Assembly (NCBI GenBank): GCA_020072925.1
Contig: JAIQGA010000003.1
Coordinates: 1-43,520, forward strand
Direction of reading: 5' to 3'
From: Terriglobia bacterium
GTDB lineage: Bacteria > Acidobacteriota > Terriglobia > UBA7540
Length of the DNA stretch: 43,520 nucleotides
Below, piece after piece: positions 7,216-9,179 of the stretch; within the stretch, counting starts at the first letter, position 1; the number at the start of each line of letters is the position of its first letter. The translations under genes were made by a program, and so were the position numbers. The notes under the pieces are model-generated. The model was given only the letters and a program-made list of their open reading frames with translations. It was not told the DNA's origin and searched no databases.

Positions 7216-7242
7216 TTGACACCGGTCATAAAGTCGTATTAG
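7216..7242 (+). promoter_or_regulatory. Candidate promoter of the reductase leader
   Basis: A perfect -35 hexamer TTGACA at 7216-7221 is followed, after a shorter-than-ideal 15-base spacer, by TATTAG at 7237-7242. Transcription would begin near 7249, just upstream of the leader ORF at 7258. The -35 is strong; the -10 is only a 4/6 match. Confidence 0.45.
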
Positions 7243-7257
7243 GCTGGATCTGTCTTT

Positions 7258-7332
7258 ATGAGGTTGTCCCTCCAACTCGGCATGGCGATGTGTTGTTGTT
7301 GCGGCGTCGCGGTGCCGACGTGTGGAGGTTAG
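7258..7332 (+). CDS. Cysteine-rich leader peptide (attenuator control ORF)
   Basis: A 24-codon ORF: MRLSLQLG followed by MAMCCCCGVAVPTCGG and a TAG stop. Translation may begin at ATG 7258, 7282 or 7288, all in frame. Four consecutive Cys codons (TGT TGT TGT TGC, 7291-7302) and one more at 7321 make it an obvious cysteine sensor. No function is expected for the peptide; it measures charged tRNA-Cys by ribosome stalling. It is placed directly before the terminator that precedes the sulfite/nitrite reductase gene. Poly-Cys leader ORFs are known ahead of sulfur genes in mycobacteria; I know of none described in Acidobacteriota. Confidence 0.8.
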   Translation: MRLSLQLGMAMCCCCGVAVPTCGG

Positions 7333-7400
7333 GCCTAAGCTAGTTTAACCGGTCTATTTTCCAACCCACCGTCGGACGATCCAAGGTCCGGCGGTGGGTT
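7305..7400 (+). promoter_or_regulatory. Cysteine transcription attenuator (mutually exclusive RNA hairpins)
   Basis: Three pairings can be drawn. Strand 1:2 (protector): CGTCG 7305-7309 with CGACG 7316-7320, just after the Cys codons. Strand 2:3 (antiterminator): 7315-7330 (CCGACG-T-GTGG-AG-GTT) with AACCCACCGTCGG at 7363-7375, where 13 pairs form around a 1-base and a 2-base bulge. Strand 3:4 (terminator): 7363-7377 with 7386-7400. A ribosome stalled at the Cys codons covers strand 1 and frees strand 2, so 2:3 forms and the gene is read. A ribosome reaching the stop at 7330 covers strand 2, so the terminator forms. The pairings are seen; the mechanism is inferred from classic amino-acid attenuators. 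Confidence 0.75.
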
Positions 7401-7410
7401 TTTTTGTTTT
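7363..7410 (+). terminator. Rho-independent terminator of the attenuator
   Basis: A 15-base-pair stem (7363-7377 with 7386-7400, a single G-U wobble) with the 8-base loop GATCCAAG is followed by a run of seven T at 7399-7405, one G and four more T. It ends directly before the GGAG ribosome-binding site at 7411 of the reductase gene, so it can only act as a conditional stop for that gene. Confidence 0.85.
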
Positions 7411-7421
7411 GGAGACAAACC

Positions 7422-9179
7422 ATGATGATTGCCGAAGTCGAAAGCAGACACACACTCGAGGCCATCGAAGACGAAATCCAGGTCTTCGAGGAACGCATTG
7501 AGCAACTGCGCCGCGGAGAGATTACTGACGATCAGTTCCGGCCCTTCCGGCTGAAGCACGGCATTTACGGCCAGCGGCAACCCGGCGTGCAGATGGTACG
7601 CGTCAAGATTCCCTCGGGCGTGCTCAATCCCGAGCAGCTTCGGGTGCTGGCGCGCCTCGCCGACACCTACGCGACGGGCCGCGGACACGTGACGACGCGC
7701 GAGAATTGCCAGTTCCACTATGTGAACCTCGCCAACGTTCCCACCATCATGCGCTGGCTGGCAGACGCCGGCCTGACCACGCGCGAGGCCTGCGGAAACA
7801 CCGTGCGCAACGTCACCTCGTGCCCGCTGGCGGGAATCTGCCCTACGGAAACTTTCGACGTCACACCTTACGCGCTGGCCACCACGCGCTTCTTCCTGCG
7901 GCACCCGGAATTCCACGACCTGCCGAGGAAATTCAAAATCGCCTTCTCCGGCTGCGAGGACGACGGCAACTGCGCCGTGGCCGGCATCCACGACATCGGA
8001 CTGATCGCACGCGTGCGCGGCTCGAATGGCACGGCGCATCGCGGCTTCAAGGTGCTGGTGGGCGGCGGGCTCGGCAGCCTGCCCACCGAGTCGGCCGCGC
8101 TCACCGAGTTTCTGCCGGAAGAAGAGTTGATGCCGACCATGGAGGCTATCCTTCGAGTCTTCAAGGAGCATGGCAACTATAAGAACAAGTACAAGGCGCG
8201 CATGAAATTCGTTCTGCGGGCCAAGGGCATCGAGGAGTTTCGCCGCCTGGTCGCCGAGAAACGCAAGCAGGTCACAACCCCCGCAGAGACGTTCACCGTT
8301 CCCTCGCCCGTGCTGCCGCCGCTCGTGACGCTTGAAGCCTCGCCGGGAAACGGCAATGGCCATGGCAACAGCAATGGCGCCTCTGCCGAGTACGCGCGCT
8401 GGGCACAGCACAACCTGATGCCGCAACGCCAGCCTGGCTATGCGGTCATCTGGATCAAGCTGCCGGCGGGGAATATTCAGGCCCAGCAGTTTCGAGGACT
8501 CGCCGACCTGCTCGAGAAGCATCACCTGAGCGCCGTGCGCATCGCGATCTCCCAGGACCTGGTGATTCCCTGGGTACCCGCCACCAAGGCAAAGCATATC
8601 TATGGTGACCTGGAAGCGCTCGACCTCGCCACGCCGGGCGCGCGCACCATCGCCGACGTTACCGGCTGCCCTGGCGCCACTACCTGCAACCTGGGCATCA
8701 CCAAGTCGCTCGTCCTGGCGGACGTGCTGGCCAAGGAGTTTGCGGACGAGGCGGACCCCGAGGTGAAGAAAATCCGCATCAAGATCAGCGGCTGCCCCAA
8801 CTCCTGCGGGCAACATCACTTGGCCGACATCGGTTTCTATGGCAACGCGCGCAAGGTAGGCGAGCAGCAGGCGCCGTATTACCAGTTGATGCTCGGCGGG
8901 CAGGTCAATGCCGAAGGCGTGCGCTTCGCGCGCCAGCTTGTGCCGCTACCCGCCAAGCACATCCCGCAGGCCCTGCACGAATTGCTCGATTTCTACCGGC
9001 AGGATCGCCAGCCTCGCGAAGCTTTCGCGGATTGGGTGGCGCGGACTTCCGATCAGGCTCTTACCGCGCGTCTCCAGGAGTACATCGCCGCTGACGCCAC
9101 CGAGCCCGAACTCTTCGTCGACTGGGGCGACCAGGAGACCTACTCGCTGAAACTCGGTCGCGGGGAGTGCGCGGGGTAG
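7422..9179 (+). CDS. Siroheme-dependent sulfite/nitrite reductase (ferredoxin type)
   Basis: 585 residues from ATG 7422, with GGAG 8 bases upstream. The frame extends to a TTG at 7404, but that lies in the terminator T-run. Two duplicated halves are visible, as in NirA/Sir: an N-terminal half with TGRGHVTTRENCQFHYV, a Gly/Asn-rich linker near residues 308-320, and a C-terminal half holding the 4Fe-4S/siroheme cysteines C416-x5-C422 (TGCPGATTC) and C458-x3-C462 (SGCPNSCG). Such enzymes reduce sulfite to sulfide or nitrite to ammonia with six electrons. Sequence alone does not separate the two, but the cysteine-sensing leader argues for assimilatory sulfite reduction. Downstream genes make the siroheme precursor. 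Confidence 0.85.
   Translation: MMIAEVESRHTLEAIEDEIQVFEERIEQLRRGEITDDQFRPFRLKHGIYGQRQPGVQMVRVKIPSGVLNPEQLRVLARLADTYATGRGHVTTRENCQFHYVNLANVPTIMRWLADAGLTTREACGNTVRNVTSCPLAGICPTETFDVTPYALATTRFFLRHPEFHDLPRKFKIAFSGCEDDGNCAVAGIHDIGLIARVRGSNGTAHRGFKVLVGGGLGSLPTESAALTEFLPEEELMPTMEAILRVFKEHGNYKNKYKARMKFVLRAKGIEEFRRLVAEKRKQVTTPAETFTVPSPVLPPLVTLEASPGNGNGHGNSNGASAEYARWAQHNLMPQRQPGYAVIWIKLPAGNIQAQQFRGLADLLEKHHLSAVRIAISQDLVIPWVPATKAKHIYGDLEALDLATPGARTIADVTGCPGATTCNLGITKSLVLADVLAKEFADEADPEVKKIRIKISGCPNSCGQHHLADIGFYGNARKVGEQQAPYYQLMLGGQVNAEGVRFARQLVPLPAKHIPQALHELLDFYRQDRQPREAFADWVARTSDQALTARLQEYIAADATEPELFVDWGDQETYSLKLGRGECAG

Follow-up and report, generated by a model that had tools for sequence, protein, structure and literature searches.

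A NirA-family reductase gene of a Terriglobia bacterium is preceded by an element which, with a probability of about 0.9, is a trp/his-type transcription attenuator in which a translating ribosome senses cysteine through the supply of Cys-tRNA. This estimate draws on sequence comparison and modelling in the window (the whole stretch of DNA analysed, 43,520 nucleotides) and in its relatives. The soil acidobacterium thus appears to use translation of a Cys-rich leader peptide as a gauge of its cysteine supply; from the arrangement we infer stalling, cysteine dependence and coupled transcription and translation at the leader. The features of the locus, with the evidence for each, are as follows.

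7216–7244 (+): sigma-70-type promoter; sequence, and promoter-like sites at the same place in relatives' leaders
7216–7221 (+): −35 element TTGACA; sequence
7237–7242 or 7239–7244 (+): candidate −10 elements TATTAG (15-bp spacer) or TTAGGC (17-bp spacer); sequence
7258–7332 (+): leader ORF of 24 codons, MRLSLQLGMAMCCCCGVAVPTCGG*, predicted to be near-leaderless; sequence, and poly-Cys uORF in homologues
7291–7302 (+): putative sensing codons TGT TGT TGT TGC, four consecutive Cys; sequence
7321–7323 (+): fifth Cys codon of the leader ORF; sequence
7269–7287 (+): strand 1 of the protector helix; duplex prediction, swap test and pair counts
7308–7329 (+): strand 2, partner of strand 1 (protector) or strand 3 (antiterminator); duplex prediction, pair counts, and RNA kept in locus L018
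7363–7376 (+): strand 3, arm common to antiterminator and terminator; duplex prediction and pair counts
7387–7400 (+): strand 4, of the intrinsic terminator; sequence, duplex prediction and pair counts
7399–7405, then GTTTT to 7410 (+): terminator T-run; sequence and duplex prediction
7411–7414 (+): reductase ribosome-binding site (RBS), GGAG; sequence
7422–9179 (+): NirA-family siroheme sulfite/nitrite reductase, 585 aa, the putatively regulated gene; Pfam, NCBIfam and PDB matches

The leader ORF with its run of four Cys codons had been noticed in an earlier sequence-only reading, as had the terminator with its T-run before the reductase RBS, and both are present as described, the terminator having 14 pairs (7363–7376 with 7387–7400). 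The terminator ends 5 nt ahead of the RBS, which lies outside the attenuator hairpins. Duplex prediction in the window gave −27.5 kcal/mol for the terminator (3:4), −31.0 kcal/mol for the protector helix (1:2, 7269–7287 with 7308–7328) and −18.5 kcal/mol for the antiterminator (2:3, 7315–7325 with 7366–7375). The last of these is the core of the 13-pair antiterminator proposed earlier, which has extra outer pairs to 7330/7363. The 231-nt leader region as a whole folds at −95 kcal/mol compared with −69 kcal/mol in shuffles (z = −5.5; none of 200 shuffles reached the native value). One part of the earlier reading was not borne out. The small hairpin 7305–7309/7316–7320, proposed as the protector, is possible in the window but was rejected for lack of conservation: 41% of cells are paired, and part of it lies in a stretch absent from most relatives. 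In the pairing models the supported competitor of the antiterminator is the long helix 7269–7287/7308–7328, which takes its place.

Transcription would start just ahead of the near-leaderless leader ORF. With ample Cys-tRNA, a ribosome at the stop codon (7330) would cover strand 2, the 3:4 hairpin would form and transcription would terminate at 7399–7405. With scarce Cys-tRNA, the ribosome would stall at 7291–7302 and disrupt strand 1, so that strand 2 could join strand 3 instead, and formation of 2:3 would permit readthrough into the sulfite reductase gene. If the leader were not translated then helix 1:2 would form and termination would be the default. That a stall at Cys would free strand 2 while a ribosome at the stop codon would hide it had been suggested earlier, and this reading is supported by covariation, the ribosome footprint model and the nature of the target genes.

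The element was compared with its counterparts upstream of homologous genes, using genomes that are mostly metagenome assemblies and kinship labels taken from the search tool. Protein searches in the same family returned close orthologues of 61–77% identity and a longer paralogue type, ∼40–45% identical, which also has a poly-Cys leader. A poly-Cys uORF was found in 24/24 same-family homologues with usable upstream DNA and a recognisable terminator in 23/24, the exception (L003/L013) retaining MCCCR* but having no clear terminator. A covariance model, R1, built from an alignment (A1) of 21 same-family loci, matched in 32 of 40 genomes of the order, some of them lacking this reductase. This comparison of orthologous upstream regions, which the sequence-only reading had put forward as a check, found the Cys run retained and the stems covarying.

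The pairings themselves were examined in 64 leaders, with strands set from the ORF and the terminator. The median distance to strand 3 was 31 nt from the stop codon and 79 nt from the Cys run. When each strand was paired with its own partner or with partners swapped between leaders, own partners gave −25.1 versus −20.5 kcal/mol for 1:2, −17.6 versus −13.5 kcal/mol for 2:3 and −23.3 versus −14.3 kcal/mol for 3:4 (p<0.001 in each case), while the control pairing 1:3 showed no own-partner preference (p=0.49). Subgroups were mostly consistent; in the third NIR_SIR group alone the specificity of 2:3 was not significant (n=7, p=0.42). In alignment A1 the paired fraction was 92.9% for 2:3, where both bases of one pair have changed in four sequences, and 91.5% for 3:4, where three pairs show such double changes. 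Helix 1:2 was looser, with 69% of cells paired, yet it exceeded controls in both pairing and covariation score. In one locus, L008, reading by eye showed that strand 3 fits its altered strand 2 and that a C–C mismatch is left in the terminator.

These results bear on the strongest of the other explanations, namely that the leader acts on reductase translation or through Rho-dependent termination in the style of the mycobacterial poly-Cys sORFs and that the hairpin is incidental. In mycobacteria poly-Cys leaders have no terminator, and translational attenuation is their reported mode of action (PMC1262725, PMC9031893); the leaders here are likewise predicted to be near-leaderless. However, the window has a strong intrinsic terminator just before the RBS, nearly all homologues have one as well, covariation ties 2:3 and 3:4 to the leader strands, and the RBS is free of the hairpins. 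Control at the level of translation or via Rho is thus improbable.

Transcription attenuation was also explored with a footprint model in which a ribosome was masked at the first Cys codon (stalled) or at the stop codon and the pairing of strand 3 was computed. Over the 64 leaders this pairing was 0.71 when stalled at Cys, 0.26 at the stop codon and 0.48 in shuffles. The stalled value exceeded the stop value in 60/64 leaders, a contrast which is partly trivial because more RNA is exposed in the stalled state, so that comparison with shuffles was needed; the stalled value exceeded the leader's own shuffle mean in 59/64 (Wilcoxon p = 1.6e-10). For the window alone the stalled-state pairing was moderately above shuffles, 9 of 100 of which reached the same value. 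Whatever the ribosome state, the full-length terminator was dominant at equilibrium (0.79 with the ribosome stalled, 0.90 with it at the stop codon and 0.89 with none). The equilibrium fold alone was rejected as a demonstration of a switch given that the terminator wins in all states, and the switch must therefore be kinetic and decided during transcription. Kinetic switching is usual for attenuators.

In 67% of the 64 leaders a promoter-like site immediately precedes the start codon, as against 1.4% of control windows, and the median distance between the −10 element and the leader start is 13 nt. The predicted 5′ UTR, taken from promoter position only, is ∼6–8 nt, which would leave no space for an aptamer or riboswitch. 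The leader Cys codons are TGT in 80% of cases (32 protein-anchored leaders) while five genes of the window use TGC for 20 of 21 Cys codons, and the preference for TGT in the leaders may slow decoding. The short predicted 5′ end speaks against a metabolite-binding riboswitch or T-box in which the Cys ORF would be a by-product of the stem sequence. The regulated genes would also be compatible with a riboswitch for a sulfur metabolite, but an Rfam covariance-model search of the leader gave no match at the gathering score to leader or riboswitch families, the weak matches being chance-like, and the Cys run persists in groups that have wholly different terminator and antiterminator sequences. Such a riboswitch or T-box is very unlikely.

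Equally unlikely is a constitutive terminator accompanied by a small functional Cys-rich peptide, metal-binding for example, with no regulatory link between them: a C-terminal P-x-C-G motif is conserved in many same-family leaders, but it is encoded by strand 2, the leader peptide differs in L012/L017, and the Cys run is the sole part common to leader peptides elsewhere in the phylum. The leader ORF of L018 ends ahead of strand 2 and yet the strand-2 sequence is retained beyond the stop codon, indicating that strand 2 is conserved as RNA.

In Pfam the NIR_SIR domain and the ferredoxin-like half domain (NIR_SIR_ferr) each occur twice in the reductase. Its best NCBIfam match is the NirA family, with a score below the family cut-off, and its best PDB match is Mycobacterium tuberculosis NirA (1zj8), a sulfite reductase. 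Genes like ccsB, hemA and cobA/hemD follow 3′ of it on the same strand, the last of these making the siroheme precursor. Sulfite is supported as the substrate rather than nitrite because leaders of this kind precede sulfur-assimilation genes. The earlier suggestion that the enzyme is an assimilatory sulfite reductase is thus favoured, as sat, cysD, cysH, cysteine synthase, siroheme synthase and three NIR_SIR types all carry such leaders. The window's own genome (6.5 Mb in 456 contigs) has one clear instance of the attenuator, this one; further matches there were weak or due to chance, and no poly-Cys leader was found upstream of its sat gene (L157).

Other Cys leaders were sought with a pattern of poly-Cys, 75–105 nt and a terminator end, the reversed pattern serving as the control. 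In the 40 genomes of the order it matched 23 loci and the control matched none. About 20 of the 23 are considered genuine, since three (G005:C96:10629-10741, G005:C237:9782-9894 and G008:C20:5706-5818) resemble fluoride riboswitches by eye (GGTGATGGAGTTCGCC...AATGACTCC) and were rejected as Cys leaders. Within the order Cys leaders also precede the third NIR_SIR type, outer-membrane barrel genes and a YeiH-like gene, and they stand before 9 of 12 sat genes of the ∼400-aa type and before none of the longer sat types. In a sample of the phylum the pattern matched in 31 of 396 genomes, a figure which includes clear chance matches, and the control gave a few matches; loci such as L122–L126, L131 and L138, with no proper leader ORF or terminator, were excluded as chance. 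In other families of the phylum the genes found behind Cys leaders are sat, cysD, cysH, cysteine synthase, a NIR_SIR gene and a siroheme-synthase N-domain gene, as well as TauE-like, YeiH-like, threonine-synthase-like and RimK-like ATP-grasp genes. The genes behind Cys leaders are largely of one pathway and, judged from these sequences, the window element is one of a wider set of Cys attenuators governing sulfur assimilation in Acidobacteriota.

Several leaders stand before less familiar genes. In four genomes (L097, L099, L101 and L108 in G002, G009, G003 and G031) Cys attenuators precede genes for large outer-membrane barrel proteins that contain carboxypeptidase-regulatory domains, and their position suggests a role for these proteins in the uptake of sulfur compounds. 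A Cys leader and terminator precede a RimK-like ATP-grasp gene at L136 and L137 (G110:C7, G158:C11); this gene is possibly thiol-related. At L130 (G065:C275) a Cys leader ending ACCCCL and a terminator precede a threonine-synthase-like gene, whose link to sulfur is not obvious. A role in sulfur metabolism is thereby suggested for poorly characterised leader-bearing proteins, namely the outer-membrane barrels, the YeiH-like and TauE-like transporters and the RimK-like ATP-grasp proteins. A hisI-like gene was also seen to follow a terminator and a leader ORF containing His codons (HSHYRHF; L103:576-695; G036:C10:2975-3094), by sequence a probable histidine attenuator.

Two weak matches to R1, E = 2.4e-4 and 0.02, were the leaders MKMLSQSRLQLQSSYLSLKAPGCGM and MKRLSQSRLQSLSSYLSLSVPGCG, located before tRNA arrays in two genomes of the same family as the window genome:

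L111:557-679 (G015:C177:4156-4278): tRNA-array leader; R1 match
L109:5416-5542 (G016:C275:20415-20541), minus strand: tRNA-array leader; R1 match

These leaders are rich in Leu, Ser, Gln and Tyr codons and are followed directly by arrays of tRNA genes for the same four amino acids. Their strands 1 and 2 are similar to those of the Cys attenuator (...CCCAATCCCGGC... and ...GCCGGGGTGTGGG...), and both have competing hairpins and their own terminator. In G015 the leader holds a cognate codon for 10/10 tRNAs (TTA, TTG, TAT, CTG, CTT, AGC, TCC, TCA, CAA and CAG). It seems an even chance that there is a reusable RNA chassis, with the Cys attenuator among its versions, of which the tRNA-array version would sense tRNA supply and adjust transcription of the tRNA genes by ribosome-mediated attenuation. 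No further genome of the order yielded a tRNA array behind such a leader, a scan of viral contigs for the tRNA-array leader found nothing, and no description of a tRNA-operon attenuator of this kind was found in the literature searched. G016 also has a 30-gene tRNA array on one strand (L214:7156-11043), with an HNH-endonuclease-like ORF at ∼8399–8963 between the tRNA genes, and this array resembles mobile tRNA arrays.

A 2010 survey remarked that hardly any of the attenuators predicted in Acidobacteria had an assigned function (PMC2965389). No description of a Cys attenuator or of such a regulon in Acidobacteriota was found in the literature searched, in which subscription journals are scarcely covered; this agrees with what the sequence-only reading had supposed, though the principle is not new given the predicted Cys attenuator uORFC-8-2, which has an intrinsic terminator and lies upstream of cysS in Rhodobacterales (PMC8632094). 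Cys attenuation with an intrinsic terminator would here act on a whole pathway, the cases previously found described being that of cysS and the terminator-less actinobacterial leaders. The Acidobacteriota, abundant soil bacteria that are hard to culture, thus gain a testable mechanism for the control of sulfur assimilation.

The element shares with uORFC-8-2 a short uORF, tandem Cys codons, an intrinsic terminator and predicted ribosome-mediated attenuation. However, uORFC-8-2 has two tandem Cys codons and precedes a cysteinyl-tRNA synthetase gene in Alphaproteobacteria, whereas the Acidobacteriota leaders usually have three to six Cys codons and precede sulfur-assimilation genes, in the window a NIR_SIR reductase. 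Actinobacterial cys leaders have been described without a conserved terminator (PMC1262725), Rho having been suggested earlier, and the mycobacterial polycysteine leaderless sORFs (Canestrari 2020) are described as translational attenuators (PMC9031893, PMC13236596). They resemble the present leaders in having a Cys run before cys genes, a short or absent 5′ UTR (predicted from promoter position for the present leaders) and a cysteine-responsive logic, but they are reported to act on translation and have no conserved intrinsic terminator while that of the window is strong. The element also resembles the trp, his and leu attenuators, with strands 1–4, the pairings 1:2, 2:3 and 3:4 and a codon run before strand 2; the difference is that here cysteine would be sensed, and that the targets are not one biosynthetic operon but single operons of a common pathway at scattered sites.
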